From a virus: a DNA stretch of 43,325 nt. Location of the stretch: IMG/VR virus record IMGVR_UViG_3300047409_000418, positions 1 to 43,325 of that record. One strand, written 5' to 3'. Under the pieces are notes generated by a model. The model had not been told where the DNA came from and ran no database searches. It saw only the letters and a program-made list of their open reading frames with translations. Position numbers and translations under genes: made by a program. The first letter of the stretch is position 1. Each line of letters begins with the position of its first letter. Below are positions 5,280 to 29,853 of the stretch, in pieces.

Positions 5280-5692
5280 TGCGTGCCAATAATGGGGATG
5301 CGCGGGCTAAAGTAGCGGGAATAAGAGCGCAACGTTTGGCCAATCTGGTGCACACGCCAAAAGGCGCGCCTCGACGCGGTGGACGCACGAAAGGCACGCC
5401 GAACAAGGTGAATGGCGACATCAAGGAGATGGTCGTCGCTGCGCTGAGCCGGGCTGGCGGGGTCGATTACCTGGTGCAGTGCGCCCACAAGCAGCCGGTG
5501 GCGTTCCTGGGGCTCGTCGGGCGCGTGCTGCCGCTTACGATCGCGGGCAAGGGCGATAACGGCGCGATCCCCATCAGTTTCGAGTGGGCACCAGCTGCCC
5601 CATTCATCAAAGATGCTGATGAGATCAAGCAACTTTCGATCGATGTGGAAGCGGAACCAGTGCTCGAGCAGCTCGAGGATGCGGCCGACTAA
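5279..5692 (+). CDS. Putative terminase small subunit
   Basis: A 137-aa basic protein with the segment GGRTKGTPNKVNGDIKEMVV followed by a helical region and GLVGRVLPLTIAGKG. This resembles the GRPKGxxNK-type phage proteins commonly encoded just before large terminases and assigned as DNA-recognition small subunits. It probably binds the packaging site and presents DNA to the large subunit. The ATG overlaps the stop of the NusG-like gene. The non-coding repeat region that follows (5693-5991) is a natural candidate for its binding site. Assignment rests on position and on the N-terminal pattern, not on a definitive motif. Confidence 0.6.
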   Translation: MRANNGDARAKVAGIRAQRLANLVHTPKGAPRRGGRTKGTPNKVNGDIKEMVVAALSRAGGVDYLVQCAHKQPVAFLGLVGRVLPLTIAGKGDNGAIPISFEWAPAAPFIKDADEIKQLSIDVEAEPVLEQLEDAAD

Positions 5693-5858
5693 CAAAGCGC
5701 TGGGGTTCGCATTGGGGTCCAACAACCCCGCACCAACAGCGTAACGTCTTGATATTCCTGCCCGTCGCTATTGTTGACAAATCAATGTGCCCCCACCCCC
5801 CTGCCACCCCCCGGGGGGCATGGGCACTTCGATCGGCGCTCGCGGCCGTTGGCGTATA

Positions 5859-5879
5859 CCCTCCACCCACCCCCACCCC
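5859..5879 (-). other. G-quadruplex motif (minus strand)
   Basis: The plus strand reads CCC TCCA CCC A CCCCC A CCCC, so the minus strand has four runs of three or more G with loops of 1-4 bases, a textbook quadruplex pattern. More long G-runs on the same strand lie at 5790-5812. Confidence 0.65.
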
Positions 5880-5928
5880 AATCTCGCTGTTAGTCGAAAA
5901 TTCACCCCACCCCAATCTCGCTGTTAGT
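5874..5928. repeat. Tandem 34-bp-period direct repeats
   Basis: CACCCCAATCTCGCTGTTAGT followed by C or T and GAAA occurs at 5874 and again at 5908. Two further TCCGATTTCAC units follow at 5941-5951 and 5953-5963. The unit is AT-richer than the surroundings and suggests binding sites for a phage DNA-binding protein. Confidence 0.7.
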
Positions 5929-5991
5929 TGAAATCTCACCTCCGATTTCACTCCGATTTCACCCCCAACTGTAAGACACCATTCCGCTAAC

Positions 5992-6102
5992 ATGATGGTC
6001 TTGGACGTCCCCCTCTGGCTCTTGCTGCTCGGCGCTTTCGTGGCCGGCATCGCCGTCGCGGCGGCCGTGGTCGCGGCCGCGCGTTGGAAGCGCAATGCCT
6101 GA
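5992..6102 (+). CDS. Tiny single-helix membrane protein, 36 aa
   Basis: ATG 5992 opens a 36-residue reading frame, MMVLDVPLWLLLLGAFVAGI followed by an alanine/valine-rich stretch and RWKRNA. One transmembrane helix with a positively charged C-terminal tail is evident. Its TGA overlaps the start of the next gene (ATG 6095), consistent with coupled translation. No strong ribosome site is visible upstream. It could be a pinholin-like or other small membrane protein; function unknown. Confidence 0.45.
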   Translation: MMVLDVPLWLLLLGAFVAGIAVAAAVVAAARWKRNA

Positions 6103-8044
6103 CACCAACGCCCTCGATCCCACCACGCCGATGGGCGACCCGGTGGCGCAGTGGCTGGCGCTGCAGCGTGTGAAGAACAGCGCCGAGGGCATCGGCGACG
6201 ACAATCTGCTCAACCGAGTGTTTGCACAGGGCGACGCCTACTACGCGCCGCCCCCACCCCCGGCTGGCGTCCGCCCGATCTGGAGCCCCGACAACCCGGT
6301 CGGCACCAGCCGGCTGCGCGACACCTACGCCGGCCCCGCCAGCCCGTCCTTCTCGCCCCTGGTCACCAGACCCTACGCGGACGTCCCGGTCACCGCCGCC
6401 AAGGCCGCCGAGATCGAAACCGGCGCCCGCGACTACTCCACCGGCCTGTTCGGCGACCTCTCCATGATGGAGCTGCCCGGCTTCGGCCGGGCGGTCACCC
6501 GGGAGCCGGTGGTGCTGGCTCAAAAGCGGGTGCGGGCCCCCGGCAGCGATCGCCCGCCCGAGCCTGGCGCGCGCGCCCCGCGCCGCAGCGCGTCCTTGGA
6601 CGGTCATTTGCCTTTCCCCGATGCCGAGGCCCCCGCCCCGGCACCGTCGGCGGAGCCGGTTCCCGCCCCAACGGCGCCGGCCCCGTCGGCGGTCTCCGCC
6701 ACAACCCCCGCCCCGGCGGCGGAAGGCCCCGTCAGTCACTCGCTGGACGGGCATGTGCCTTTTCCCGACGCTGCCGCCCCCACGCCCTCGTCTGGCGTCC
6801 CCGCGACGGCGCCCCTCACGCCACGCCCGGCTGGCGCGCCGGTCATGGAGAGCCTGGCGAGCAGGCTCGGCTCCAACGCCGACGCAGACCTCGCGGCGCT
6901 CGGCTTGCCCGCCTACGGGGACATCGTCCCGAGTACCAGAACTGGGCCGGTCAGCCAGGCGCAGCTGCGGGCGGGGTCGCCTGCGCACCCCGACAATGTG
7001 CTCGACCTGGCCAACACCTGGCAGGTGCCGAACGTGCCGCAGACGGACCTGGCGCGCATCGATCCCTACGGTGGCAAGCGCAAGGGTCTGCCCGAGCACA
7101 TCATCAATGCGATGAGCAACCCGGACCTCGAGGCGAAATTGCGCTTCGTGGCCGAGAAGGGCCTCGAGGTCGGCGGTGCGCATTGGTATAATGCGGAACC
7201 GTTACGACAAGCCTTTGTCGACCGCCTCGGGCCAGAAGAAGGCAACGCGCAATTCGATCGCTACATGGCGATTGTCGGCGCCACCTCCGCCGGTTCTGAG
7301 GTTAGTCAAAATATCCGCGCCGCCTCCTACTATCACGTCATGGAGCGCGCCGGCACGCCTGTCCGGACTTCCAATGACCTGATCTCGCCTTACGGCCACA
7401 AGATGCAGCAGGCGCACGTCAGCGGCTATCGCGGGCTCGACGAGGGCGACACCGGAACGCTCAACCCGGAAACGCAGCCGAAACGGTCGTCTTTCGTTGC
7501 CAATCTTGGTGGCAATCAACAGCCTGTCACTGGAGACAAGCACTTTATCCGGCTGATCGGGATGCTTTCTCAAGACCCCGCGTTCCTCAACGGCAAGACC
7601 GTCGCGGATGTCAACTATCCCGCCCTCGGCATCGCCAAAGGTGAAAGCCGGAACTGGAAAGAAGAGGTTCAATTCGGCCGCATAACAATGGAACAGGCGC
7701 TGCAGCACCCGCACATGTGGCAGGACATGCCTGACCCCAACCATTATGGGGCGCTCGAGGCGTGGGCGCAGCATATCGCCTCCAAAATGGGCCTGACGCC
7801 CGCGCAACTCCAAGCGGCATTGTGGGTCGGCGGCGGCCGCGTCACCGGGCTGCGCAGCCTGCCGAAATCTTTCCTCGGGATATTTGAACATAAGCTCTAC
7901 AGCACCGCTGACAGGCGCGGAATAACCAAAGAACAAGCGCTCGATGACTTCATTCGCGGCCGCAATCCGTTGTTGAGCCCGCTGCTCGCGACCGGCGCCG
8001 CCGGGGCGGCTGCGGCGGCCGCTCAAAATCAAAATTCACCATGA
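6095..8044 (+). CDS. Large protein of unknown function between terminase genes
   Basis: A 649-aa protein. The first half is proline/alanine-rich and disordered and contains a duplicated motif, SLDGHLPFPDAEAP and SLDGHVPFPDAAAP, about 50 residues apart. From about residue 300 a folded domain appears, with GAHWYNAEPLRQAFVDRLG, AIVGATSAGSEVSQNIRAA, VTGDKHFIRLIGML and AAWVGGG-like segments. This pattern resembles phage proteins annotated with DUF7178-like domains, recalled only loosely. The C-terminus is alanine-rich. It overlaps the large terminase start by four bases. It may be a virion or packaging-associated protein with a long flexible linker. No catalytic motif can be assigned with confidence. 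Confidence 0.8.
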   Translation: MPDTNALDPTTPMGDPVAQWLALQRVKNSAEGIGDDNLLNRVFAQGDAYYAPPPPPAGVRPIWSPDNPVGTSRLRDTYAGPASPSFSPLVTRPYADVPVTAAKAAEIETGARDYSTGLFGDLSMMELPGFGRAVTREPVVLAQKRVRAPGSDRPPEPGARAPRRSASLDGHLPFPDAEAPAPAPSAEPVPAPTAPAPSAVSATTPAPAAEGPVSHSLDGHVPFPDAAAPTPSSGVPATAPLTPRPAGAPVMESLASRLGSNADADLAALGLPAYGDIVPSTRTGPVSQAQLRAGSPAHPDNVLDLANTWQVPNVPQTDLARIDPYGGKRKGLPEHIINAMSNPDLEAKLRFVAEKGLEVGGAHWYNAEPLRQAFVDRLGPEEGNAQFDRYMAIVGATSAGSEVSQNIRAASYYHVMERAGTPVRTSNDLISPYGHKMQQAHVSGYRGLDEGDTGTLNPETQPKRSSFVANLGGNQQPVTGDKHFIRLIGMLSQDPAFLNGKTVADVNYPALGIAKGESRNWKEEVQFGRITMEQALQHPHMWQDMPDPNHYGALEAWAQHIASKMGLTPAQLQAALWVGGGRVTGLRSLPKSFLGIFEHKLYSTADRRGITKEQALDDFIRGRNPLLSPLLATGAAGAAAAAAQNQNSP

Positions 8045-9384
8045 CCACCCCCGCAAAACGCCGCATTCAGCTGCCGTTTACGCCGCGCCCGTGGCAGACC
8101 CGCCTGATTGACGATCCGGCCCCGCGCATTGTCGCGGTGGTGCACCGACGCGCCGGCAAATCGACCGCGCTGATGTGGCGCGGGCTCAAGCGAGCCATGC
8201 TCGAGCCGAAACCGCTGCCCAGGGTCGTCCACATCCTGCCTTACGGGGTTATGTGGCAGCGCACCGGCCTGTGGGACGCGCTCTCGAAAGCGGCCGAGGC
8301 GATCCCCGGCGCCATCCCGCGCCGTTCGGACATGGCAATCAAATTGCCGAACGGCGGCACCTACCAGTGCGGCGGCGCCGACAACCCCGACAGCTGGCGC
8401 GGCGGCGCCGCCGACGAGGCGATCGTCGACGAGGCCGACGACACGCCCCCGAGCCTCATTCCCTTGGTTATCGAACCGATGCTCGCCGATCGCGCCGGCA
8501 CGCTGGTGCGGTCCGGCACGCCGAAAGGGCGCGGCATCCTCCAGGCAGCCTACGACCACGCGCGCATCACCCCTGGTTATTCCACCTACCTGCTCGACTA
8601 CACGCAGACCCAAGCCCTCACCCCGGCTGCGATCGACCGGCTGCGCCTCGAGATGTCGCCTGAGGAATTTGCGCAGGAGATGGAGTGCTCGTTCGCGAGC
8701 CCAAATTCCGGCAGCTACTACGGGCGCCTCATGGACGACGCCGAGCGCGACGGGCGCATCACCAAGGTGCCGCACGATCCCGCGCTGCTCGTTACCACCG
8801 CGTGGGATTTGGGCGTGCACGACAGTACGGCGATTTGGTTCGCGCAGGTAACCAAATCCGGCGAGTGGCGCATGATCGATTACATCGAGGACAGCGGCGC
8901 CGGCCTCGATCACTACGCCCAGTTGCTGCAGGAACGGCGCTATATGTTCGCCAAGCACATCCTGCCGCACGACGCCAAGATCATGGAGCTGGGCTCGGGC
9001 CGCACCCGCGTGGAGACGTTCCACGGGCTCGGCATCCGCCCCACGCGCACGCTGCGCAGTCACAGCATCGCCGACGGCATCAACGCCGTGCGCATGGTGC
9101 TGCCCCGCTGCTATTTCGACGCCGCCAAGTGCGCGAAGGGCATCCACGCGCTGCGCCACTATCGCCGGGAATGGAATGAGGCGGCCCAGGCCTGGCGCGC
9201 CACCCCCGTGCACGACCACGCCAGCCACGGCGCCGACAGTATGCGCTACCTCGCCCTCGGCGTGCGCGAGGCCGGCATACCCTCGACCATCAACGCGCGA
9301 CCGGACCCGATCTCAACCGGGCAGTGGGACGCGTCCCTGCCGGCCGGCACCGGCAAATCGGTCACCAGCTGGATGAGCGTTTAA
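8041..9384 (+). CDS. Terminase large subunit
   Basis: ATP-driven DNA packaging motor and headful or site nuclease. The ATPase part has Walker A VVHRRAGKST (Lys40) and Walker B IVDEAD (Asp130, Glu131), then a GTPKGRG coupling motif. The RNase H-like nuclease part shows Asp256 in TAWDLGVHDSTAIW and Asp399 in HASHGADSMRYLA. At 447 aa it is of normal length. The start overlaps the previous stop (ATGA). The protein docks on the portal encoded 1.8 kb downstream. The interval between the two holds four accessory genes that are not part of the standard P22-type order. Confidence 0.93.
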   Translation: MTTPAKRRIQLPFTPRPWQTRLIDDPAPRIVAVVHRRAGKSTALMWRGLKRAMLEPKPLPRVVHILPYGVMWQRTGLWDALSKAAEAIPGAIPRRSDMAIKLPNGGTYQCGGADNPDSWRGGAADEAIVDEADDTPPSLIPLVIEPMLADRAGTLVRSGTPKGRGILQAAYDHARITPGYSTYLLDYTQTQALTPAAIDRLRLEMSPEEFAQEMECSFASPNSGSYYGRLMDDAERDGRITKVPHDPALLVTTAWDLGVHDSTAIWFAQVTKSGEWRMIDYIEDSGAGLDHYAQLLQERRYMFAKHILPHDAKIMELGSGRTRVETFHGLGIRPTRTLRSHSIADGINAVRMVLPRCYFDAAKCAKGIHALRHYRREWNEAAQAWRATPVHDHASHGADSMRYLALGVREAGIPSTINARPDPISTGQWDASLPAGTGKSVTSWMSV

Positions 9385-9401
9385 CCCAAGGAGCCCCTGA
9401 C

Positions 9402-9926
9402 ATGTCGCACCGCGAACACGGACACGACCAGCACCAGACCGCAGGCGAGCGCCGCGCCGAGGCGCGCGAGCATGACGCCGAGGCCAAGCGCATCCACGAC
9501 GAGGAGGCCGCCAGACTGCGCCCCGGCACCCGCGCAGCAGCCGCTCCGCGCGATGCTTCCGCCGACCAGCTCCGCCTTCTCCTCCTGCTGTCCACCGACT
9601 GGCTCGGGGGCGATCGCAAGCACCAGGCTGAGATCGCGTCGCTGACGGCCGGGCTGCTCGCGGCCCAGGGCCCGCCGGTCAATGTCGACGTGCCGCACGC
9701 GCAGCTCGTCGGCAACACCGCTTCTTGCACCATGGGCAACTGGACCGGCGAGCCCACCAGCTACGCCTACGCCTGGCATTCGGATGGCGTCGCCAATGGC
9801 GCCACCGACCCGACCTACACGGTGCAGCCCGCTGACAGCGGACACAACCTCGCCTGCGTGGTCACGGCGACCAATGCCCTCGGCTCGACCGTCGCGCCGA
9901 TGTCGAATGCCGTTGCTGTCCCGTAA
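9402..9926 (+). CDS. Ig-like domain protein, candidate virion decoration
   Basis: A 174-aa protein with no signal peptide. Its first 60 residues are highly charged and helical (histidine, glutamate and arginine repeats such as HREHGHDQHQ). The C-terminal 80 residues match the bacterial/phage Ig-like repeat pattern: LVGNTASCTMGNWTGEPTSY, AYAWHSDGV, YTVQPADSGHNLACVVTATN. Such domains on phage particles usually bind cell-surface carbohydrates. Start ATG 9402 has AAGGAG at 9388-9393. It opens the accessory block between large terminase and portal, just ahead of the PEP-CTERM gene. A role on the virion is inferred, not shown. Confidence 0.7.
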   Translation: MSHREHGHDQHQTAGERRAEAREHDAEAKRIHDEEAARLRPGTRAAAAPRDASADQLRLLLLLSTDWLGGDRKHQAEIASLTAGLLAAQGPPVNVDVPHAQLVGNTASCTMGNWTGEPTSYAYAWHSDGVANGATDPTYTVQPADSGHNLACVVTATNALGSTVAPMSNAVAVP

Positions 9927-9955
9927 CTCAATCCCCCGAAAGGACACCAATTCGC

Positions 9956-10714
9956 ATGCGCAAGTTCCTGCTCGCCTGCGCCCTCGCGGCGCTCCCGTTG
10001 GCGGCCAATGCGACGCTGCAGCTCAGCGGCTCGGTCGTTGGCGGCGGCACCTTCAACTTCACGGCGACGGATAACAACGTCGGCAGCCACACGCTCACCG
10101 ACACCGATCCGACGCTGAACATCCTGCAGCTCGGCACCACCACGATCGACGGGGTCGTGTTCAATGGCAGCTTCACGACCGCCCTCCTCGCCGGGCCGTT
10201 CGAATTGAACTCTTCTTCCATCAGCATCGCCAACACGAACCCCTTCCCCGTCACCCTCACGGGCGTCGCATCCGCCACCAATTTCATCGGCCCGGCGAAC
10301 AGCGTCTCGGTATCCGGCAGCGGCACGTTCCAGAACGCGCCTGGCGGCACGATGTCGAACAGCTGGTGGGACGACCCCGCCAATGCGCAGGGGGCGCCAG
10401 GCACGCCTGGAGGCCTGGTGTTCAACAGCGCACCGTTCACGGCCGCCGGCTCGCCCAGTTCCTACGGCGGCGCCGGTTTTTCCTTCACCGGGCCGGTCAA
10501 CGACCCGTCGGCGTTCAGCCAGACGTTTTCCTTCACCGCGACCTTGCCTGCCGGGTCCGGGGCCTGTCTGACCGGGAGCGTGGTTGCATGCCCGACGATT
10601 GTCGGCCGGCAGCAGGCCAGCGAGAAGATCGGCGTCCCCGAGCCGCCAGCGCTGGGCATCCTCGGCATGGCCCTGCTGAGCCTGGGCCTGATCACCCGCC
10701 GCCGCAGTGCCTGA
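9956..10714 (+). CDS. PEP-CTERM sorting-domain protein encoded by phage
   Basis: A 252-aa exported protein. Residues 1-19 are a clear signal peptide (MRKFLLACALAALPLAANA, cleavage predicted before TLQ). The middle is a serine/threonine/glycine-rich beta-type region with few charges. Residues 227-252 form a canonical PEP-CTERM signal: VPEP, a hydrophobic helix ALGILGMALLSLGLI, then TRRRSA. In family terms such proteins are processed by host exosortase and displayed or released through the outer envelope. AAAGGAC precedes ATG 9956. Its stop overlaps the following membrane-protein start. Finding this in a virion-gene block suggests a lysogenic-conversion or cell-surface-altering moron. Function of the mature domain unknown. 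Confidence 0.85.
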   Translation: MRKFLLACALAALPLAANATLQLSGSVVGGGTFNFTATDNNVGSHTLTDTDPTLNILQLGTTTIDGVVFNGSFTTALLAGPFELNSSSISIANTNPFPVTLTGVASATNFIGPANSVSVSGSGTFQNAPGGTMSNSWWDDPANAQGAPGTPGGLVFNSAPFTAAGSPSSYGGAGFSFTGPVNDPSAFSQTFSFTATLPAGSGACLTGSVVACPTIVGRQQASEKIGVPEPPALGILGMALLSLGLITRRRSA

Positions 10715-10904
10715 CCGCAGCCAGTTATGGCACTTCCTGGTTCGCCTGGCGGCAGCGGTAGTCCCGCTGGCACTCACGGCCCTGGTGGCGATCGCCTGGG
10801 CCAACAGCCACACGCTGGCAGTGCAGGCGCGCGACCTCGAGGCATTGGAGAGCGAGGTCGCGCACCTGCGCCAGCTGGTGGAGCAGGAGCTGACCCGCAA
10901 GTGA
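10707..10904 (+). CDS. Single-pass membrane protein with coiled-coil tail, 65 aa
   Basis: GTG 10707 lies eight bases inside the end of the PEP-CTERM gene. Residues about 10-32 (FLVRLAAAVVPLALTALVAI) are a transmembrane helix. The remainder (LEALESEVAHLRQLVEQEL) is an amphipathic coiled coil. This layout resembles small spanin- or holin-accessory proteins, but it is shorter than typical Rz proteins and no partner is recognised. Its stop overlaps the next start (GTGA). Confidence 0.6.
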   Translation: MPDRSQLWHFLVRLAAAVVPLALTALVAIAWANSHTLAVQARDLEALESEVAHLRQLVEQELTRK

Positions 10905-11188
10905 CCGAACGGCTCGTGCGCGACCGCTACAAATACAGCATCCATCAAACCGAGCTGCTGCCCCCGCCTGAGGGGGTCCGGTTTCGCTGGCTGGAGCTGC
11001 TCCAGCAGCTGCGCGTCGACTGGCGCACGACGCTCACGCTGCCCGCCTACGAAGTGCCGTTCCGGCGGCACATCGTGCGCTGGGTGATGGGCGAATACGG
11101 CGCCCGGCGCAGCCTGCCGGCCGGAATGGTCTTCCACGCCTGGCTGCCCGACGACTTCGACAAGATCACGGTCATACGGACGCGATAG
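10901..11188 (+). CDS. Hypothetical protein before portal, 95 aa
   Basis: Start assigned to GTG 10901, overlapping the upstream stop; GGAG lies 11 bases before it. The basic protein (VTERLVRDRYKYSIHQTELL, later LPAGMVFHAWLPDDFDKITV) has no recognised domain. It ends immediately before the portal ATG. Earlier codons in the same frame read as low-complexity shadow of the membrane-protein gene and were excluded. It may be a small head or packaging accessory. Confidence 0.65.
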   Translation: MTERLVRDRYKYSIHQTELLPPPEGVRFRWLELLQQLRVDWRTTLTLPAYEVPFRRHIVRWVMGEYGARRSLPAGMVFHAWLPDDFDKITVIRTR

Positions 11189-13402
11189 ATGGCCCGGCCG
11201 AAATCCGGCGACGCCGAAATCCTGCGCGAGGCGAAAGAGCGCTTTGAGCGCTGCCAGGCTTGGGAAAGCGAGTGGCGCGATCGCGCCTGCTTTGACCAGC
11301 GCTTCGCGAACGGCGACAGCCAGAACATGTGGCAGTGGGACACCGACGTGCGCAACGACCGCACCGGTCGCCCATGCCTGACCCAGAACCATGTCAGGCA
11401 GCATAACCTGCAGATCATCAACGACGCGCGCCAGAACAAGGCGCAGATCAAGATTACGCCGGCCGGCGGGCGCGCGTCCTATGACGCCGCGCAGGTGATG
11501 TCGGGCGTGATCCGCCGCATCGAGTATCAATCGCGGGCGACTGACGCCTACAGCACCGCCACCTACCACCAGGTCGAAACCGGCATCGGCTACGTGCGCG
11601 TCGACACCGGCTACGTCAACGACACCACGCACGACCTCGACCTGTTCATCCGCCGCATCCCCGACCCGCGCACGGTCTATCTCGATCCCGACTGCATGGA
11701 ATACGACAAATCCGACGCCAATTTCGGCTTCATTTTCGTCGACATCCCGCGCGACCGCTATGAGGAGGAGAACGGCAAGGACGCCAACCCGGCGCCGAAC
11801 ACGCTCGACCACAGCGACGGCTGGAACGAGAAGGATCACGTTCGCACAGCGGAATATTGGCGGCGCACCACCAAGACCCACAAATTGCACCGGTTGAACG
11901 ACGGCACGCTGACGCGTGACGATGAAATACCCGACGAGCTGCGCGAGCAGATCGAGCCGATGATCGCCAAGACCCGCGAGGTGACCAGCCACAAGATCGA
12001 ATGGTTCAAGCTGTGCGGCAACGAGATCATCGACCGCGAGGATTGGCCGGGCAAATACATCCCGATCGCCTGCATGATCGGCGAGGAGACGGTCATCGAC
12101 AAGCGGATGGACCGCAAAGGCCACACCCGCAGCCAGATCGACGCGCAGCGCATCTACAATTACTGGTCGTCCGCCGCTGTCGAGCAGGTGGCGTTGCAGA
12201 CGAAGACGCCCTACGTGGCCCGCGCCGACGCGATCGAGGGTCGCGAGGAGCAGTGGAAGACTGCGAACATCAAAAACCACAGCGTGCTGGTGTTCAATCC
12301 GCTCGACGAACAGGGCAACGCGATCCCGCCGCCCGCGCGCGTCGAACCTCCACAAATGGCCCAGGCCTATGTGCAGGGGATGACGATCGCGCGCCAAGAC
12401 CTCATGGCAGTGACCGGGCAGTATCAGGCCGAGCTGGGCATGCCAAGTAATGAGAGATCTGGCGTAGCAATACAGCAAAGACAAAGGCAGGGAGATACTG
12501 CGACTTATCATTACATAGATAATCAGGCCAAAGGTATTCGCCAGGTCGGGCGCATCCTCCTCGATCTGATCCCGAAGATTTACGACACGCCGCGCCTGAT
12601 CAAGATCATGGGTTACGATAATTCCGAGAGCACGGTGCGGGTCGACCCCGCCGCGCAGGACGCGCACCAGCACATCGATCCGACCAATGGCGCGCCGATC
12701 AATCCCGCGCAGGCGCAGGCGATGCGCAACAACCCGGACGCGCCGAACCCGGGCATCATCTTCAATCCCGGCATCGGCGAATACGACGTCGAGGCGGACG
12801 TCGGCCCGGCCTATGGAACGCAGCGCCAGGAAGCGGCGAACGCGTTTGCTACGATTATGCAACAGAACCCGGACGCGTTTACGATCGTCGGCGACTTCTG
12901 GGCGCAAAACTCCGATTTCCCGGGCGCCGACGAGCTGGCCGACCGGATGAAGCGTGGCCTGCCGCCGCAGTATCAATCCGGCCCCAACCCGCAGGTGATG
13001 CAGGTGCAGCAGGCGGCGAAGGAGATGAACGACCACGCGCAGCGGCTGCTTGGCCAGGCCGACGCCGAGATCGGCGCGCTCAAGCAGCAGGTGCAGCACC
13101 TCACGCTGCAGTTGAAGGACAAGGCGGCCGACCACGCCGTCGACGACTATCAGGCGGAAACCGATCGCCTCAAGACCGTCGGCGCGATCGACCCGCACGC
13201 GCTGCAGATCGTGGTGCGGCAGCTGCTCGAGGACATGCTCGGAACCGACCTGCAGCCGATGCTGCAACGCCACGCCGACGTGCAGGGCGACCTGGCAGCC
13301 CGCATGGCCCCGCCAGAGCCCGCTGACGATGACGGCGCGGCAACCGGTGCCCCCGTGCCCACACCGGCCCCAGCGCCCGCCCCAGCCCCGGCAATGGCAT
13401 GA
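11189..13402 (+). CDS. Portal protein, P22 type
   Basis: Forms the dodecameric ring at one capsid vertex through which DNA is packaged and ejected. At 737 aa it is close to the P22 portal length (about 725). Family-like features include the N-terminal helical ARPKSGDAEILREAKERFER, the RPCLTQNHVRQHNLQIIND segment, TYHQVETGIGYVRVDTGY and MTIARQDLMAVTGQYQAELG. A glutamine-rich coiled helix near the C-terminus (EIGALKQQVQHLTLQLKDK) recalls the P22 barrel, then a proline/alanine tail. Around codons 418-450 (12440-12540) base composition and codon choice shift abruptly to AT-rich. It is followed by a small coiled-coil gene and the scaffold, each overlapping by ATGA. Confidence 0.92.
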   Translation: MARPKSGDAEILREAKERFERCQAWESEWRDRACFDQRFANGDSQNMWQWDTDVRNDRTGRPCLTQNHVRQHNLQIINDARQNKAQIKITPAGGRASYDAAQVMSGVIRRIEYQSRATDAYSTATYHQVETGIGYVRVDTGYVNDTTHDLDLFIRRIPDPRTVYLDPDCMEYDKSDANFGFIFVDIPRDRYEEENGKDANPAPNTLDHSDGWNEKDHVRTAEYWRRTTKTHKLHRLNDGTLTRDDEIPDELREQIEPMIAKTREVTSHKIEWFKLCGNEIIDREDWPGKYIPIACMIGEETVIDKRMDRKGHTRSQIDAQRIYNYWSSAAVEQVALQTKTPYVARADAIEGREEQWKTANIKNHSVLVFNPLDEQGNAIPPPARVEPPQMAQAYVQGMTIARQDLMAVTGQYQAELGMPSNERSGVAIQQRQRQGDTATYHYIDNQAKGIRQVGRILLDLIPKIYDTPRLIKIMGYDNSESTVRVDPAAQDAHQHIDPTNGAPINPAQAQAMRNNPDAPNPGIIFNPGIGEYDVEADVGPAYGTQRQEAANAFATIMQQNPDAFTIVGDFWAQNSDFPGADELADRMKRGLPPQYQSGPNPQVMQVQQAAKEMNDHAQRLLGQADAEIGALKQQVQHLTLQLKDKAADHAVDDYQAETDRLKTVGAIDPHALQIVVRQLLEDMLGTDLQPMLQRHADVQGDLAARMAPPEPADDDGAATGAPVPTPAPAPAPAPAMA

Positions 13403-13563
13403 GTGAAGACCTCGCCGAGCTGCGGGCCGAAATCGACCTGCTGCGCGCCCGCATCATCGAGCTCGAGGCTGAGCTCGTGCTGCTGCGCGGCACCCTGGCC
13501 CAGCCAGACCCCGACACCCCGACGCAGATCACCCACAACCATCCACCGGACGCACCCCGATGA
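13399..13563 (+). CDS. Small coiled-coil protein between portal and scaffold, 54 aa
   Basis: ATG 13399 overlaps the portal stop and TGA 13561-13563 overlaps the scaffold ATG, so the frame fits exactly in between. It encodes a strict leucine heptad region (LAELRAEIDLLRARIIELEA then ELVLLRGTLAQ) followed by a proline-rich, histidine-containing tail. Similar tiny coiled-coil proteins occur beside portal genes in other phages, where they may act in head assembly. Function not known. Confidence 0.7.
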   Translation: MSEDLAELRAEIDLLRARIIELEAELVLLRGTLAQPDPDTPTQITHNHPPDAPR

Positions 13564-14318
13564 GCGAAACCATCACCCTCCCGGCCCCCACCGAGGCGAT
13601 CCCGAACGCGCCGTCGGTAGACCCCCCGGCGCCGGCTCCCGCGCCCACCCCGGCCGCGATCGACCCGCCCGAGCCGGCGGAACAGACCGAGGAGGAGCGC
13701 ACCCGGGCCCGCGACGACGAGAGCCGGCGCGTCGCCCAGGTCCGCGCGCGCCTCGGTGCCACCGAGCGCGAGCGCGACCAGTTGGCGGCCAGGCTGGCCT
13801 ACTACGAGGCGCGCGATGTTCCCCTGCCGGGAACCCCGCTGACGCCCGAGCAGCAAGAGGCGGCGTTGCGCCAGCAGATCAGGGCCGAGGAGGCCGGCAA
13901 GATCAGGGCCGAGCGCTTCCACGAGGAGGGCAGCGCGGCGTTCCCCGACTGGGGCAAGCGGTGCGCCGACCTCATGGCGATGGGGGCAGACACCGGCTTC
14001 GCGCAGCTGCTCGTCGAAATGCCAGGCGGCACCAAGGTGGCGGCGGCGCTCAGCGACGACCCCGCCGAGGTGGAACGGATATCCGCCATCCGCACCGAAC
14101 GCGGGCGCGCGATCGCCCTCGGCCGTTACGCCGCCACGCTGGATGCTCAAGGCGGCGTGACTGGGGCAACCCCACGCACACAGTCGCAACCCGTCACCCG
14201 GGCGCCGGCCCCGGTTCGGCCGGTCACCGGCCGGGCGAGCCCGCAATTCAACGAATACACGGCGTCAGCTCAAGACCTCGTGGAACACTATCTGAAGCCG
14301 ACACCGATCCGGCGCTAG
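13560..14318 (+). CDS. Scaffolding protein
   Basis: A 252-aa acidic, mostly helical protein between portal and coat genes, the standard scaffold position. The N-terminal 45 residues are proline/alanine-rich, the middle is a long charged helix (ARDDESRRVAQVRARLGATE, then ERDQLAARLAYYEAR), and a central FPDWGKRCADLMAMGADTGF segment resembles scaffolds of P22-like podoviruses. The C-terminus (SAQDLVEHYLKPTPIRR) is basic, as expected for the coat-binding end. It would guide procapsid assembly and then exit. Identification is by position and composition. Confidence 0.75.
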   Translation: MSETITLPAPTEAIPNAPSVDPPAPAPAPTPAAIDPPEPAEQTEEERTRARDDESRRVAQVRARLGATERERDQLAARLAYYEARDVPLPGTPLTPEQQEAALRQQIRAEEAGKIRAERFHEEGSAAFPDWGKRCADLMAMGADTGFAQLLVEMPGGTKVAAALSDDPAEVERISAIRTERGRAIALGRYAATLDAQGGVTGATPRTQSQPVTRAPAPVRPVTGRASPQFNEYTASAQDLVEHYLKPTPIRR

Positions 14319-14340
14319 CCGGAAACTAACGCCTAACCGG

Positions 14341-14406
14341 TAGCGGATCGGTCAACACCGCGCGGCTGACAACGAACGGGTAGCGGGTCCGTAAACACCG
14401 CGTGGC
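14341..14406. repeat. Imperfect direct repeat before coat gene
   Basis: TAGCGGATCGGTCAACACCG (14341-14360, continuing CGCGGC) and TAGCGGGTCCGTAAACACCG (14381-14400, continuing CGTGGC) are 26-bp direct copies with four mismatches and a 40-bp period. They lie in the 197-base gap between scaffold and coat, the longest gap inside the head genes. They may be a binding site or promoter element for strong coat expression; no clear -35/-10 pair is seen. Confidence 0.6.
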
Positions 14407-14515
14407 GTGCCTGCCCCGTCTGTCAGCGCGGCTAACTCTCCTTTGCGACAACGGACCACCCCGGGCGCTCTTGAAAGGAAGCGCCTCCCGCAACTCCGTT
14501 GTCATGGAGGCCAAT

Positions 14516-16230: not shown

Positions 16231-17739
16231 ATGACGATTGCTAACGACATCATCACCCTGTCGCTGCGCAACAGCGGCGTAAACGGCATCGGCCAGACGC
16301 CGATGGCTGATGACGTCAACGACTGCTTCAAAATTCTCAACGCCTGGATCGCCGAGCTCAACCTCGAGCGGCATGTGCACGGCAACCGGGTGGTGCTGCC
16401 GACGTTTCCGGACCTCACCTCCGACGTCTCGTTCTGGTCGCCCTATGAGCATGTATTGCTCACCAGCATGGCAGTGCGCCTGCGGCAAATCTACGCGCTG
16501 CCGCCGGTCCCGATCGACGTGCAGATCGCCCAGAGCGCGCTGCAATATTTCCAGGCGCAGAACCTGCAGCAGACGCCGGCCGACCCGGCGATCGACCTCT
16601 CCACGCCGCTCTCGATCGTCGCCATGGCGCTGCGCGCCGCCGGGCGGCTCAGTGACGCGCAGGGGGTCGACCCGGGCTCGCAGGACGTCACCGAGGCGCA
16701 CCTGCTGCTGTTGGAGATGGTCGACGAGTGGGAACGCGAGCGCGAGGTGCGCAACATCCCGCAGGGGCTGCCGAACCTGATCGACATCAACGCGCCGATC
16801 GTCGACCCCGGCGGGACGTTCGCGCACGGCATGCGCAGTGCGCTCACGCTGAACCTGGCGGTGCGCCTGCGCGACCTCTGGGGGCAGGAGGTGCCGAAAT
16901 CGCTGCAGGACCGCGCCGACCGTGCGCTGCAGACCATGCTGGACATCCGCGCGCAGCAGGTCGCCCCGCTGCAGCCTGGCGGCGTGCCGGCGACCGTGCG
17001 CCACCTGCTGATCCTGGCCCTGCGCCTGGCCGGGCGCATAAATGACACGCAGCGCGTCAGCGACACCAGCACCGACATGGCCGACGCGCTCAGCTTCCTG
17101 ACGATGATGCTGGCGCAGTGGCAGCGCAAACGCTGGTTGATCTGGAACGAGACGGAGACGGCGAAGGTTGCGACCGGCAACCAATGGTATTCGGTTGGCC
17201 CCGGCGGCGATTTTGACATGCCGCGCCCCGACAAGCTGCACGGCGGCTTCACCCGGTTCAAACCGTTCGGCGCGCACAGCGTCGACATCCCGCTGGCGAT
17301 CATCGAGGCCAAGGAAGACTGGGCCGAGATCACCATCAAAGACCTCGGTTCGATCCCGGCGGCGCTGTTCTACGACAGCGCTTTTCCGATGGGCCGGGTG
17401 ACGTTCTACCCGGTGCCGCAGGCGTCCCAATACGAGATGCACATCCTGACGAAGACGCCGCTGCCGGTTTACCTGGCAATCAACAACGCGATCTCCCTGC
17501 CGCCGGAATATGCCGACGCGATCGCCAGCAACCTGGCTATCCGCCTCCCCGGCGCGCAGCTCAACCCGGTGTTGCTCGGCCAGGCGCGTTCAAGTTTGGA
17601 AACTATAAAACTGGCGAACGCGCAAATTCCGCTCTTGAGCCTGCCGAAAATCCTCGGCGGCCGGGGTGGTGACGTCTCGAGCTGGTCGGGGCGCGGGCTC
17701 AACCGGGCGTGGGTGCTTGGATCGGAGGCAGTCCTGTGA
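16231..17739 (+). CDS. P22 gp4-like head-completion adaptor with triplicated domain
   Basis: A 502-aa tail accessory/adaptor protein that would dock under the portal and keep DNA inside. P22 gp4 is only about 166 aa. Here the helical gp4-like unit appears three times: residues about 2-45 (IANDIITLSLRNSGVNGIGQ), about 127-172 (PLSIVAMALRAAGRLSDAQG) and about 251-300 (VRHLLILALRLAGRINDTQR). The third continues into the typical WYSVGPGGDFDMPRPDK and IPAALFYDS region. AGGTGAT precedes ATG 16231. The triplication is an unusual architecture. The following fibre gene overlaps its stop. Confidence 0.78.
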   Translation: MTIANDIITLSLRNSGVNGIGQTPMADDVNDCFKILNAWIAELNLERHVHGNRVVLPTFPDLTSDVSFWSPYEHVLLTSMAVRLRQIYALPPVPIDVQIAQSALQYFQAQNLQQTPADPAIDLSTPLSIVAMALRAAGRLSDAQGVDPGSQDVTEAHLLLLEMVDEWEREREVRNIPQGLPNLIDINAPIVDPGGTFAHGMRSALTLNLAVRLRDLWGQEVPKSLQDRADRALQTMLDIRAQQVAPLQPGGVPATVRHLLILALRLAGRINDTQRVSDTSTDMADALSFLTMMLAQWQRKRWLIWNETETAKVATGNQWYSVGPGGDFDMPRPDKLHGGFTRFKPFGAHSVDIPLAIIEAKEDWAEITIKDLGSIPAALFYDSAFPMGRVTFYPVPQASQYEMHILTKTPLPVYLAINNAISLPPEYADAIASNLAIRLPGAQLNPVLLGQARSSLETIKLANAQIPLLSLPKILGGRGGDVSSWSGRGLNRAWVLGSEAVL

Positions 17740-20700
17740 ACGACGGCAGCACCGGCTATCCATGGTCGACCGGCGACGTCCTGACGGCCGCCGACCTCAA
17801 CGCGGCGATCGCGAACGCTGCATCGATCGGCGCCGCCGCCGTCGGCAAGGTGGTCGCCTCCGATCAGTTCCTGGCCAAACCCGATTTCCTGCTGCTCACC
17901 GGCTCGGTGAGCTGGGTCGGCACCACCGTCACGATCGCGGGCTATGCGTTCGCCCAGGCCGACGTCGGCAAGAGCCTCGTCATGCCTGCCGGGGGCCCAG
18001 GTGGTGCGCCGCAGATTGTCACCATCGTCGGCGTCTCCGGTGGTTCCGCCACCGTCAACCCGGCGGCGACGGTCGCCTTCTCCAACATGACCAACGTGCT
18101 CGGCGGGATCGGTGCCGGTCCAGCATTGATCACTGTTACCAACGCCGACACGGGCGGCTCGCTCGTCGGTGATCAGCTGACGGTGGTGGCAACGGCAATC
18201 CGCCCGGCGGTGCTGCAGACGGTGCAGACCAGGGTGGTGTCCGCGAGCATCCCCGCCGATGCGGCAATGATCGCCTCGATCACTGGCACCGACATGGTGG
18301 TGACCAGCGCCGCGCCGCACACCCTCTTCCCAGGCGGGCTGGTGGTCGGCGCTGGCGTGGCCCCTGGCACGCTCATCGTCAAGCAAACCGTCATCCCCCC
18401 TGCAGGGGCCGTTGCAGGGCCCACCTGCGGCCCCGGCACCTACACGGTGAGCATCGCGCAGACGGTCGCCTCCTCCACCCTCACGGTGTCCTACGCGGGT
18501 TCTGGCGGGCCCCCTGGCCCGGTGCTGCTGCGCGGGACCACCGGCTACGGGCGGCGGGTGGTGCTGTCGGGCAACGTCAACTCCGGCGGCTCGCTCGATC
18601 CGACGCTGTCGCTGGACCCGGTCACAGGCGCGGACCCCGGGGCCTATTGGATGGACGTGGAGGAGCCGCTTGGTGAGGCTGTCCGCACCGACATCCGGTC
18701 TTTTGTGCTGCCGGGCAGCTGGCTCGCGGGCGGCACGACGCTCACGCTGAACGCCGCCGAAGTCACGCCGCTGATCATGCCGATCATCCACCCCGGCGCG
18801 ACCGTGTTCGCGCTCGATGAAAACGGCGCGCCTGCCTTCCCTGCCAACACCATGGTCGATAGCATTATTGACGCCCCGAGCATGACCATCAAAACCACCC
18901 AGGCGGCGATCACGCTGGGGACCAACAACGACATCACGTTCACCGACAACCGCCGCAACATCGCCTTCTCCGCGACATTCACCAGCGGCGCGACCACCAT
19001 CACGTTCAGCCCGACGGCGGGGGTGCCGACGCTCCCCACGGGGGTCAGGGTTGGGCAGACCCTGTTCGGCCCCGGCCTGCAGGGCGGCGTCGATCCGACG
19101 GTCGCTGGGAATACGGTTATTACCGCTATCGCTGGCTCGACCATCACGATCTCACTCCCGACCACGCAAGCCGCCACGACCGCCGTCAGCCTGCGGGCGG
19201 TGCCTTACCTCGTCGGCGCGGTGGTCAAATTGAACCTGGGCCCGGCGGTGCTCGCCTTCCGCGATTATGGGGCCTACGCGGGTGCGCCTGGGACGAATGG
19301 CTGGCCATTCCCGGTCACGCGCAAAAATCGGGCGGGCGGTCAGGATGCTACCGGCATTCTGGTGACCTTCACCGAGGGCGCGCGCACGCACTCCAATTTC
19401 ATTGCTTCCGGCACCGACAGCGCCCCTGCGATCAATGCGTGGCTGAACGCTACACGCTCGCAGCTCGCCGCTACCAGCGACGGAATGGAGGCGGTGCTGC
19501 GCCCGGGCGCGTATCTCGCGCTCTCAAGTATCAACGCGCGCAGCATGCAGAAAACCATGACCCTGCGCGCATCCGGGGTGATGATCCATTCGGCGATCGC
19601 CGGGGCGACTGGCGCGGCGGCGCGGGCATGGGACGCGAGCGGCTCCGGTGCTTACCGGATGGTTGGCGACATCATCATCTTTGGCGATGCTTATTTCCCA
19701 CCCGATATCGGGACGGTGTTCGCCCGCACCGACGTCAATAATTTCTGCTCGAATTTGACCGTCAACGATGTCAACGCGACCGGTTGGTTCAAGTTTGCCG
19801 CCAGCTGCTGGGGCAATATGGAAGCCAGCGTTGTCAACCACTGCGCTGGCAACAACGCCATGCCGTGGAGCGTGACCGACCCGGATGTGGCCCACCCCAA
19901 TGACAAGCGCATCCTGACGCCGAATTTTGGCAGGGTGATCGACGGCGACAACAGCTACGGTTATCTGGACTATCCGCCGCTGCAGACGCACGGGAGCTAT
20001 GTCGGGTTCACCGAGGATGTGGGCACCTCGATCTGCGCAGGCGGGGCGGTGCCTTTCTCTGTCGTCGGCTGCGGCGGCTATGTGAACCGGCGCGGCTATG
20101 CGGCGAGCTGGTCCTCTCCCGCAATCTTCCTTTCCAAATGCAACAATTCGACCCTCGATATCCACTGTGAAGCGGCGGGCCTCCCGCAGGCAATCTTCAT
20201 GTGGGACCGCAGCAATGGTGGGGTGTCGTTCAATCACTCTCGTTTTGAAGACCTCAACAATTTCGCCACCGACGCAATTTTTGCCTATGACACTCTCGGC
20301 AAATTCGGCGTGCCCGTCGCCGGGTTCACCGCCATCAATTCAACCGCCGTAATCGGCACGACGCTGGTCACGCAGCAGGTGTTTGCCGATCATGTGCCGT
20401 TCATCGCCGGGCACTATTGGTTTGGCGACATCGCCGTCGGTAGCATTCTCAACACCGGGCTGCCGCACTGGTTCAACATTCCCGACCACCGCGAGGGGCG
20501 GCTGCTGCTCGGCAATTCAAGCACCAAGCTCGGTGCCGACGTCCTCACCGTGGGCTCGATCGCGGCCACGGGCAGCATCGTCGCCGCCGGTAGCATCACC
20601 ACCACCGACTGGCTGCACGCCGACCTGGGCCTGTCGATTGGCCCCACCGGCTTTCCGCAAGGCAAGCTGCAATTCGCGGGCGGCTTGCTGACCTTCACGA

Positions 20701-21734
20701 CGCCGCTGTCGCTGCCCGACGGCACGGTCGCGGTCACGGCTTTCCCCGGCGACAACGACACCTCGGTCGCCACCACCGCGTTCGTGCATGCGGCGGTGAT
20801 CAACGCCGCGTCGGGCAGCCCGCCGGTCATGGACGGCGTGGCCAACGCGGGCACGCTCGCCGCCTACTCGCGCGGGGATCATGTCCACCCCACCGACACC
20901 AGCCGCCTCGCCACATCGGGCGGCACGATCGCGGGCAACGTCACCGTCACCGGCACCACGACGCTGGGGGCTGCGACAGCGACCACGCCGGGGACGGCTG
21001 ACAACAGCACCAACATCGCCACCACTGCCTTTGTGCGGGCGCAGGCCGCGACCACCACGCCGATCATGGACGGTGCCGGCGCAGTCGGTGTCAGCCTGGC
21101 CTACGCGCGCGCCGACCACGTGCATCCCATCCCGTTCATTCCGGCTGTGGGCACCAGCACGCCGGTCATGGACGGCGTGGGCAACGCTGGCACGGTGTCC
21201 AACTACGCGCGCGCCGATCACGTCCACCCCACCGACACCAGCCGCTTCCCGGCTGCGGGCGGCACGATCAACGCGGCAGTGCCGCTGACGATGATCAACA
21301 GCGGCCAAATCGACGCCTATGTGCGCAACACCGGCACGGGCGGTTCGGCCGGCGGGGTGTGGCTGCATCTCGACGGTCCCGCCTCTTCCGCGCGCCGCCG
21401 CCTCGTCTTTGAAACGGCGGGCAGCGCGCGCTGGGACTTCGGCACGAACAACCTGCCGGAAAGCAGCGGCAACGTCGGCAGCGGGCTCAACCTGCGCGGC
21501 TTCAACGACGACGGCACAACCTCAACCATCTACATGACCATCCTGCGCCAGGACGGCATCGTGCAGATCGGCGCGGCCGCTGGCGTCAAGCTGACCGGAA
21601 ACCTCGGCTTCTACGGCACCGCGCCGATCGCCAAGCCGGCAATCACCGGATCGCGCAGTGCCAACGCGGCGCTCGCCAGTCTGATCACGCAGCTCGCCGC
21701 CCTCGGCATCATCACCGACAGCAGCACGGCATGA
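17736..21734 (+). CDS. Beta-helix tail fibre/tailspike with GDHVHP repeats
   Basis: A 1332-aa receptor-binding protein. GTG 17736 has GGAGG at 17724-17728 and overlaps the previous stop. The N-terminus (YPWSTGDVLTAADLNAAIAN) is a virion-attachment-type segment. Several threonine/glycine-rich beta repeats follow, then at about residues 560-920 a pectate-lyase-like beta-helix opening with DSAPAINAWLNATRSQLAAT. The C-terminal part has three collar-like repeats (YSRGDHVHPTDTSR, YARADHVHP, YARADHVHPTDTSR) as in other phage fibres, plus a final chaperone-like end. It probably binds or depolymerises host surface polysaccharide. No catalytic residues are assigned. Confidence 0.85.
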   Translation: MNDGSTGYPWSTGDVLTAADLNAAIANAASIGAAAVGKVVASDQFLAKPDFLLLTGSVSWVGTTVTIAGYAFAQADVGKSLVMPAGGPGGAPQIVTIVGVSGGSATVNPAATVAFSNMTNVLGGIGAGPALITVTNADTGGSLVGDQLTVVATAIRPAVLQTVQTRVVSASIPADAAMIASITGTDMVVTSAAPHTLFPGGLVVGAGVAPGTLIVKQTVIPPAGAVAGPTCGPGTYTVSIAQTVASSTLTVSYAGSGGPPGPVLLRGTTGYGRRVVLSGNVNSGGSLDPTLSLDPVTGADPGAYWMDVEEPLGEAVRTDIRSFVLPGSWLAGGTTLTLNAAEVTPLIMPIIHPGATVFALDENGAPAFPANTMVDSIIDAPSMTIKTTQAAITLGTNNDITFTDNRRNIAFSATFTSGATTITFSPTAGVPTLPTGVRVGQTLFGPGLQGGVDPTVAGNTVITAIAGSTITISLPTTQAATTAVSLRAVPYLVGAVVKLNLGPAVLAFRDYGAYAGAPGTNGWPFPVTRKNRAGGQDATGILVTFTEGARTHSNFIASGTDSAPAINAWLNATRSQLAATSDGMEAVLRPGAYLALSSINARSMQKTMTLRASGVMIHSAIAGATGAAARAWDASGSGAYRMVGDIIIFGDAYFPPDIGTVFARTDVNNFCSNLTVNDVNATGWFKFAASCWGNMEASVVNHCAGNNAMPWSVTDPDVAHPNDKRILTPNFGRVIDGDNSYGYLDYPPLQTHGSYVGFTEDVGTSICAGGAVPFSVVGCGGYVNRRGYAASWSSPAIFLSKCNNSTLDIHCEAAGLPQAIFMWDRSNGGVSFNHSRFEDLNNFATDAIFAYDTLGKFGVPVAGFTAINSTAVIGTTLVTQQVFADHVPFIAGHYWFGDIAVGSILNTGLPHWFNIPDHREGRLLLGNSSTKLGADVLTVGSIAATGSIVAAGSITTTDWLHADLGLSIGPTGFPQGKLQFAGGLLTFTTPLSLPDGTVAVTAFPGDNDTSVATTAFVHAAVINAASGSPPVMDGVANAGTLAAYSRGDHVHPTDTSRLATSGGTIAGNVTVTGTTTLGAATATTPGTADNSTNIATTAFVRAQAATTTPIMDGAGAVGVSLAYARADHVHPIPFIPAVGTSTPVMDGVGNAGTVSNYARADHVHPTDTSRFPAAGGTINAAVPLTMINSGQIDAYVRNTGTGGSAGGVWLHLDGPASSARRRLVFETAGSARWDFGTNNLPESSGNVGSGLNLRGFNDDGTTSTIYMTILRQDGIVQIGAAAGVKLTGNLGFYGTAPIAKPAITGSRSANAALASLITQLAALGIITDSSTA

Positions 21735-27399: not shown

Positions 27400-29853
27400 A
27401 TGCCCGACCTCACGCAAATCACTTCGCCGTCGGGCGTCAAGTTCACCGTCGCCAAGGATGCGGCGGACGCGTTCGGCGGCTTCCTCTCGGACCTCGAGAA
27501 ATCGGGCTACAAGATCGACCAGGCGAGCAGCGGCGGCTACAACGACCGCAAGATCGCCGGCACCGACACTCCGTCGCAGCATTCGTTCGGGCGTGCGATC
27601 GATGTCAACTGGAACAGCAACCCGCGCGGGGCGAAGAGCCCGAGCGACCTGCCGGCGAATGTCGGCGAGCTCGCGGCCGCGCACGGGCTGACCTGGGGCG
27701 GCACCTGGTCGGGTGACACGCGCGACCCCATGCATTTTGAATTGAGCGGGAAGCCAGTGGCACAAGCAGCAGCGCCCACCGTCGACGAGCTCAGCAAACG
27801 CATCGATGCGCTGAGCGGCGCGGCGGCGCCCGCCCCGGCCGCGAACGACACCGCGCCCAGCGCCGACGACCTCAGCAAACGCATGGACGCGCTGCCCCGG
27901 CCGGCACCACCGCAGGCGCCGCCGGGCAAGAGCGGCTACGTGGCCAACGTCGGCGCGGGCGCCCTCGAGGGCGTGGCCGGGGGCATCAACCTGGCGACCG
28001 ACCCGGCGAGCTCGTTCCTGCAGATGCTGAAGGTGCCGAACCTGCTGATCGCCGCGCACGATGCGCTGGCGGGCACCAGCGTCGGCCGCGCGCTCGGCGC
28101 CGACAAACCGTTCGATGAGAAAACCAAGAACTACCTGCTCGGCGCCGACACCGCGCCGGGCGCCTTCGGCAGCCAGCCTGGCCAGGGTTACGGCAGCAAC
28201 CTGGTGCACATGCTCGGCACTGCCGTCGGCGCGCAGCCCGAGGACATCACCGCAGCGACCCCTGGCGAGCGCGTGGCGCGGGAGGCGGCCACGGGGGCGA
28301 CAATGGGGGCGCTGGCCCCCGGCAACCTGCTGGGCCTGCCCGCCAGGGTCGCTGGCGGGGCGGCTGGATCGGTTGGCGCGAACGAGCTGCCGCGCATGCT
28401 CCCCGAGGACACGCCCGAGCTGCTCAAGGCGTTGGCGGAGCTGCCGGCGGGCGTGCTCAGCGGCTTGGCCGGCGGCGTGGCTGGTGCGGGGGCGGCGCGG
28501 TTCGCGGGCCCCAGCACCCGCGCCGCCGGCAACGCCCTGGCCCGCCCGGTGAAGGCGACGGCGGGGGCGCTGGATCGGTTCGCGCGCGGCGCCGACGAGC
28601 CGCCGCCGCCGGAAGGGACGACGCCGGCAGCCACGCCACCGGAGGGGCCGACGCCAGCCGGGGCGATGGTCACCCCACCGCAGCTGGCGACGTTCACGCC
28701 CGAGGAGACGGCGGCGTATCGCGCCAGCGGCGAGGGCCGCAAGTTGATGGAGAACCAGGAGATCGGCATCCCCGATCGCAACGCATATGTTCCTGGTGTC
28801 ACCGTCAGCGCCGCCGAGCAGGAGCTCACCGCCGAGCTGGCGCGCGAATTGAAATCGGCTGGCCTGGAAGACCCCGGCGTGAGCCAGGACATCAAGGCAA
28901 CGGCGCAGCGCAACGACCAGCTGCGGCGTGGCTTCATCAAGGACACGACTGGGGACGAGGTCAGCATCCATAACGAGGAGGTGAAGCAGACCGCCGCCAT
29001 CGAGGCGGACAAGCCGCGCGTGTTCGGCGAGGACAACGTCAAGGGCGACGCCTACATGGGGCCCCTCCTCGAGCAGATCGACAAGACCCGCAACCTGCCC
29101 GAGAACCGGCAGAACCCGGAGCTGCAGAAGGTGCTGGGTGACCTGCGCGAGCGGCTGGTCAACCCGGACGGCACGCCCAAGCAGATGCACCCGCAGGAGG
29201 CGTGGGGGCTGCAGCGGAGCATCGACCGGCTCACCAGCAAGCGCATGGCGGCGGACGACCCGGCGCTGCATTTTGAGGGGCACCAGCTGCGCACCGTCGG
29301 CGACACACTCGCGGCCGAGATCGAAAAGAACGCGCCCGGCTACAACGCCATGCGCGCCACTTACCGGGAGCACGCGCAGCGGATCGAGGCGATGCGCATC
29401 CTGCAGGAAAAGACCTCGAGCATGCTGAGCCAGACCACGACCCCGCTGCGCTTCAGTGACTTCCAGCGCTTCATGAAAAACGTGGTTGACATGCGGAAGA
29501 CGCCCTCGACCGACCTCAACCCCTACAAATCGATCAGCGAGGAGCAGATGGACCGGCTGTGGCGCGTGCGCGACGATCTCCGCCGCGTGGCGACCGCATC
29601 CGAGCTGGCCCGCGCCCCCGGCAGCGACACGCTGCCCAACGTCATGGACCTGCTGAAGCGGCACATCGGTCCCGGGGCGATGCACGCGGTGGCGAACTAC
29701 ATCTCGCCGGGCTGGGGCACCGTGGCTCTCAACACAATCCAGCAGGTCGCCGCGCCGCACCTGGCGGCCCGGGCGCAAGCGCAGTCGCGGGCCCGCGCGC
29801 AAGAGCTGCTGCACCCACCCAACCCGCTGCGCGACATCAACGCTGCGCCGTAG
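27400..29853 (+). CDS. Ejection protein with N-terminal M15 peptidase domain
   Basis: An 817-aa protein in the P22 gp16 position. Residues 1-115 form an M15/VanY-type metallopeptidase domain: His61 and Asp68 in TPSQHSFGRAIDVNW and His112 in RDPMHFEL are the expected zinc ligands. It would cut peptide crosslinks of peptidoglycan so that DNA can enter, or act in lysis. A duplicated DELSKRIDAL / DDLSKRMDAL segment follows, then glycine-rich hydrophobic helices (about 180-210 and 290-380) that could insert in membranes, and a long helical C-terminus. No ribosome site is obvious, so coupling to the upstream gene is likely. Confidence 0.83.
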   Translation: MPDLTQITSPSGVKFTVAKDAADAFGGFLSDLEKSGYKIDQASSGGYNDRKIAGTDTPSQHSFGRAIDVNWNSNPRGAKSPSDLPANVGELAAAHGLTWGGTWSGDTRDPMHFELSGKPVAQAAAPTVDELSKRIDALSGAAAPAPAANDTAPSADDLSKRMDALPRPAPPQAPPGKSGYVANVGAGALEGVAGGINLATDPASSFLQMLKVPNLLIAAHDALAGTSVGRALGADKPFDEKTKNYLLGADTAPGAFGSQPGQGYGSNLVHMLGTAVGAQPEDITAATPGERVAREAATGATMGALAPGNLLGLPARVAGGAAGSVGANELPRMLPEDTPELLKALAELPAGVLSGLAGGVAGAGAARFAGPSTRAAGNALARPVKATAGALDRFARGADEPPPPEGTTPAATPPEGPTPAGAMVTPPQLATFTPEETAAYRASGEGRKLMENQEIGIPDRNAYVPGVTVSAAEQELTAELARELKSAGLEDPGVSQDIKATAQRNDQLRRGFIKDTTGDEVSIHNEEVKQTAAIEADKPRVFGEDNVKGDAYMGPLLEQIDKTRNLPENRQNPELQKVLGDLRERLVNPDGTPKQMHPQEAWGLQRSIDRLTSKRMAADDPALHFEGHQLRTVGDTLAAEIEKNAPGYNAMRATYREHAQRIEAMRILQEKTSSMLSQTTTPLRFSDFQRFMKNVVDMRKTPSTDLNPYKSISEEQMDRLWRVRDDLRRVATASELARAPGSDTLPNVMDLLKRHIGPGAMHAVANYISPGWGTVALNTIQQVAAPHLAARAQAQSRARAQELLHPPNPLRDINAAP

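Follow-up and report, generated by a model that had tools for sequence, protein, structure and literature searches.

Organization of the locus

The gene under study (here the PEP gene) occupies positions 9956-10714 on the plus strand of the window, i.e. the whole stretch of DNA analysed, which is a 43,325-base IMG/VR virus record. It is an ATG-start open reading frame encoding 252 amino acids, and a Shine-Dalgarno-like GAAAGGA (9938-9944) lies 11 nt upstream of the ATG. The window was found to encode a P22-type portal, a major head protein, homologues of head closure and DNA-ejection proteins, a large terminase and a tyrosine integrase (41517-42770; PF00589, 69.9 bits), indicating that it represents a temperate tailed phage. 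The gene order is terminase large subunit (8041-9384; phrog_2472 and phrog_2), a small Ig-like protein (9402-9926), the PEP gene, a 65-residue membrane protein with a coiled coil (10707-10904), a 95-residue protein (10901-11188) and the P22-type portal (11189-13402; phrog_156, E 2.9e-122), all on the plus strand like the integrase. Clade comparison revealed conservation of the small proteins that follow the terminase and precede the portal, and a homologue of the 65-residue protein directly follows the PEP gene in the related phage L021. The original prediction had placed the gene between terminase and portal in the virion block; this placement was confirmed, the Ig-like gene separating it from the terminase and two small genes separating it from the portal. 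The stop of the PEP gene (10714) is overlapped by the start of the next phage gene (10707), so the PEP gene belongs to the phage operon and was not joined to it during assembly. Host contamination or a chimaeric assembly was rejected on account of this overlap and of the recurrence of the arrangement in independent contigs. The coding score and GC3 (0.89) of the gene are like those of the neighbouring phage genes.

The terminase-portal interval of related phages ranges from about 0.1 to 5 kb and encodes small membrane proteins and lipoproteins that vary from phage to phage. In the phages closest to the window, L001 and L002 (portal 87% and terminase 88% identical), that interval lacks the PEP gene, which makes it an accessory gene. 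Small lipoprotein-like genes (SSGIPPCNAWIFLFGAADLTLDCP) were observed in the interval of L007 (5497-5673), L018 (7743-7913) and L019 (4946-5161), near the PEP-gene site of other phages, and tiny glycine-rich membrane proteins of about 54-58 residues recur in variable regions (window 29866-30030, L021 8070-8234, L046 6065-6238, L121 9644-9808). The Ig-like protein, strongly conserved in its C-terminal half and variable at its N-terminus, follows the terminase in most clade members and may be a decoration protein. Elsewhere the virion block contains a 1332-residue protein (17736-21734) with no Pfam match, whose ORF with a longer start (17709) had no PHROG match, a GNAT acetyltransferase (PF00583; 24581-25039) and an 817-residue protein (27400-29853) with an M15_4 peptidase domain near its N-terminus, which is probably a virion-associated wall hydrolase.

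Features of the encoded protein

The PEP-CTERM tag is used by bacteria for sending proteins to the surface slime. The signal peptide of the window protein (residues 1-19, 9956-10012), MRKFLLACALAALPLAANA followed by TLQ, was assigned by inspection; its position is kept across the family, and the alignment revealed that AxA and then [TV]LQ are retained at its end. The C-terminal tail (residues 227-252, 10634-10711), VPEPPALGILGMALLSLGLITRRRSA, was delimited by profile searches and AlphaFold2 and consists of VPEP, a hydrophobic membrane helix (232-251) and RRR. The isolated tail scored 21.5 bits against TIGR02595, above the cut-off of 16 bits, and 20.4 bits against Pfam PF07589, just below the cut-off of 20.7 bits, while a six-frame TIGR02595 search of the window gave the tail at 18.9 bits, also above the cut-off. 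The match of the tail to a PEP-CTERM model, as proposed originally, was thus obtained. The scores for the whole protein (14.2 bits for TIGR02595 and 15.2 bits for PF07589) were both just below the cut-offs, which points to a somewhat degenerate PEP-CTERM tail and not a textbook one; among relatives the TIGR02595 scores reach 34.5 bits. The signal peptide and the VPEP-helix-RRR arrangement of the original prediction therefore stand, and the description of the tail as canonical does not fully hold. In 100 shuffled versions of the window, with 52,479 ORFs in all, a strict PEP-helix-basic tail occurred by chance 6 times, i.e. about 0.06 per window, a figure that counts any ORF before a coding frame and a signal peptide are required.

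Searches with the window protein gave no match in PHROGs and none in the PDB sequence search, and as a single sequence it found no homologue in IMG/VR or in 50,697 phage records. A tblastn search with the tail only gave no matches; this query was probably masked as low complexity, making the result uninformative on phage databases. The AlphaFold2 model built with 23 family sequences (mean pLDDT 80.6) consists of a beta-sandwich body (residues 20-226, 10013-10633) and then the helix 232-251, which is the tail; helices were predicted at residues 3-10 and 232-251 and strands almost exclusively between them. The PDB and viral fold searches returned weak matches of the body (E about 1e-5 to 1e-3, TM about 0.2-0.4) to carbohydrate-binding modules, MAM and Eph jelly-rolls and phage tail and fibre domains. 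Naming a function from these matches was set aside as the similarity is too weak, and sugar binding is accordingly a lead and not a result, although the modelled body is probably sugar-binding.

Recurrence of the gene family in phages

The TIGR02595 search of 50 related phage records gave 11 tails over the cut-off in 10 records, which include three near-identical contigs and so amount to about eight independent carriers. The PEP gene is located in the terminase-portal interval of the window, L021, L028-30 and L052, just upstream of the terminase in L037 and L027 (the latter with two PEP genes), after the head-protein region in L046 and near tail genes in L044. Full-length homologues of the window protein, 39-40% identical, are encoded by L052 and L037. 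Relatives were also revealed in 28 IMG/VR contigs by a search with the family alignment including bacterial paralogues, and surfaced only by that search and not by the single-sequence one. The members of this PEP family are 24-42% identical to the window protein, and their carriers have unrelated terminases, the gene usually being located beside the terminase gene. The order in L129 is small terminase, PEP gene, large terminase; a terminase or portal is near the PEP gene in L125, L143, L145 and L121; and a window-type terminase is directly downstream of it in L139, L140, L142 and L144.

The Glu-Pro of PEP was invariant among 26 aligned members, all of which matched TIGR02595. The tail was over the cut-off in 25 of 26 carrier records searched, the remaining record ending inside the PEP gene, and it is retained in every family member whose 3' end is present. 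The conserved elements of the body are D.AN.QGA, R.Q and two cysteines, and comparison of the family body with NCBIfam gave no named family above its own cut-off. The window copy is divergent, having a long branch and lacking the two cysteines that are nearly invariant in the family. Some phage records carry at least two PEP-CTERM genes (L132, 6001-7457, in tandem; L116, 9321-9857 and 11357-11899). Four tails over the cut-off were observed in G1095, the contig of L128; some lie towards the far end of this contig, in what may be flanking host DNA.

Selection and transfer

The dN/dS values of eight closer pairs of PEP genes were 0.08-0.31, indicating purifying selection on the gene. The PEP proteins of L121 and L052 are 86% identical and their terminases have no significant similarity, showing that the gene moves between unrelated phages. 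The reverse was seen for the window and L052, whose terminases are 84-91% identical and whose PEP proteins are only 36-39% identical; this implies either repeated gain of the gene or its rapid divergence.

Exosortase and the likely host

No exosortase was detected in the 33 PEP-carrier records (the window and 32 others), so any processing of the tag must use a host enzyme. The reliance of a phage PEP-CTERM protein on the host exosortase, proposed in the original prediction, is supported by this result together with the retention of the tag across the phage family. A search of the genome collection gave a single close terminase, that of a Rubritepida MAG (L076) of the order Acetobacterales, and the host of the window phage is likely a member of the GTDB family of this MAG. 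No exosortase was found in the MAG, which is a short draft genome. Portals 39-41% identical were present in 7 of 190 genomes of that family, with a related terminase beside the portal in six of the seven, and a 56%-identical terminase was located on a short contig of G348, a member with two exosortases. In the likely host family, exosortase was present in 111 of 300 genomes (37%), PEP-CTERM-like matches in 125 and both in 103. In the six genomes where a related terminase adjoins the portal, no exosortase and no PEP-CTERM match was found, and the prophage stretches that were retrieved lacked the PEP gene; with six genomes this absence is only suggestive.

G299, also of the likely host family, has an exosortase and carries chromosomal paralogues of the phage PEP family, four of them full-length (L109-L112), plus one partial copy; these copies are possibly a donor or domesticated set. 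Outside that family the PEP body gave no match at E <= 1e-15 in 784 genome searches covering the class and phylum, a search that had no built-in positive control; its three-sequence version found G299 at 1.9e-55.

Timing of expression and proposed role

The PEP gene follows the preceding gene by 29 bp on the same strand, inside the late virion block. Over positions 5500-14500 no promoter-like site was found and terminators did not exceed the number expected by chance, and the consensus scan upstream of the gene gave no sigma-54-like site; in a GC-rich phage such consensus scans carry little weight. Taken together, these features favour late expression over expression in the lysogen, and the sequence suggests that the gene is expressed with the late lytic genes, although it may have an unusual promoter.

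The gene and its tag, the family, its phage context, the selection acting on it and the absence of a phage exosortase are established directly. On this basis the PEP gene is probably a phage cargo gene whose product is an exosortase substrate that is exported, processed by the host and delivered to the surface or slime of the infected cell. By analogy with the bacterial system, the protein would be produced together with the products of the late virion genes, its signal peptide would direct it into the Sec pathway, and the C-terminal helix and arginine cluster would anchor it in the inner membrane. The exosortase of the host would then recognise it at PEP and cleave it, and the beta-sandwich body would end up outside the infected cell, either on its outer surface or in its exopolysaccharide. 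The changed surface or slime might reduce re-adsorption or superinfection, or alter clumping and release; this benefit to the phage is a guess, as are the superinfection blocking and biofilm change of the original prediction. The broader statement, that a widespread and horizontally moving phage gene family from the packaging region hijacks the PEP-CTERM sorting enzyme of the host to rebuild the surface or slime of the infected cell, is made with moderate confidence, slightly lower than that in the export and processing of the window protein itself.

A first alternative is lysogenic conversion, in which the resident prophage would make this exported exosortase substrate from a weak promoter of its own, altering the surface or biofilm of the lysogen. 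It agrees with the integrase of the phage and with the frequent activity of temperate-phage cargo genes during lysogeny. The use in lysogeny suggested by the original prediction is nevertheless weakened by the 29-bp gap on the same strand in the late block and by the lack of promoter-like and sigma-54 sites, and we regard it as unlikely, though less so than the remaining alternatives. It is rather improbable that the protein is a decoy which floods the host exosortase, leaving the PEP-CTERM proteins of the host undisplayed and the slime loosened before release. The tag is kept while the bodies differ between phages, and the two or more different PEP genes of L116 and L132 would also suit a decoy; however, the body is conserved and under purifying selection within the family, which a pure decoy would not need.

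Acquisition of a bacterial PEP-CTERM gene by chance, as a passenger useless to the phage, would fit the close bacterial paralogues in one genome (G299) and the lack of the gene in the closest phages (L001 and L002), but it is strongly disfavoured by the selection on the PEP gene and is very improbable given the 28 contigs, the low dN/dS, the tail that is always kept and the recurrent site by the terminase. Least probable of all is a head or tail decoration protein of the virion whose tail helix merely resembles a sorting tag, since, despite the location in the virion block and a beta-sandwich that weakly resembles domains of phage tails and fibres, the signal peptide and basic membrane anchor are conserved in the family, PHROGs gave no match and the gene is missing from the closest relatives that have the head module.

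The function of most PEP-CTERM proteins and their processing by exosortase are poorly known. A PEP protein kept under selection in a phage would imply that a sorted protein matters in the encounter between phage and host, with an effect that can be tested. The tag would moreover serve as a sequence marker of likely hosts, namely exosortase-positive, slime-forming bacteria.

Comparison with known systems

Its tail identifies the window protein as a PEP-CTERM protein, and the new part is the phage-borne, packaging-associated family. It resembles the substrates of the PEP-CTERM/exosortase (EpsH) system (TIGR02595/TIGR02602; PMC1569441) in having a signal peptide, no intervening membrane helix, PEP, a membrane helix and a basic end, with a body of no recognisable homology to named families. 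It differs in being encoded by a phage, in or near packaging genes, and in lacking an exosortase encoded alongside it. In proteobacteria, most genes of this kind form an operon by themselves, preceded by a long upstream region and a sigma-54 site (Haft 2006, PMC1569441), whereas the window gene has a gap of 29 bp and no sigma-54-like site.

Overexpression of PepA, a PEP-CTERM protein of Aquincola, keeps exopolysaccharide cell-bound and restores flocs (PMC9850573), which shows that PEP-CTERM proteins can change slime. The window protein shares the PEP-CTERM tail with PepA (NF033554) and is not a member of that family, scoring 16.9 bits against a cut-off of 80, mainly by the tail. The chromosomal paralogues in G299 are about 34-37% identical to the window protein over the full length and have the same tail; unlike the window gene, they are set in a chromosomal context and have no phage genes of the window type next to them.

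No description of phage PEP-CTERM proteins was found in the literature searched, outside which lie subscription journals and most preprints; one match for PEP-CTERM and phage was discarded as a precedent because it concerned host genes. If the proposed role is true, these phages would, judged by that literature, be the first viruses described as using the exosortase system. We know of no described phage cargo that modifies the surface by way of a host sorting enzyme. The PEP gene is similar to phage moron genes that modify the surface (e.g. superinfection-exclusion proteins) in being sporadic, absent from close relatives, exported and apparently not needed for building the virion; it differs from them in that it would use the sorting enzyme of the host and is apparently transcribed with the late genes and not as a separate unit.
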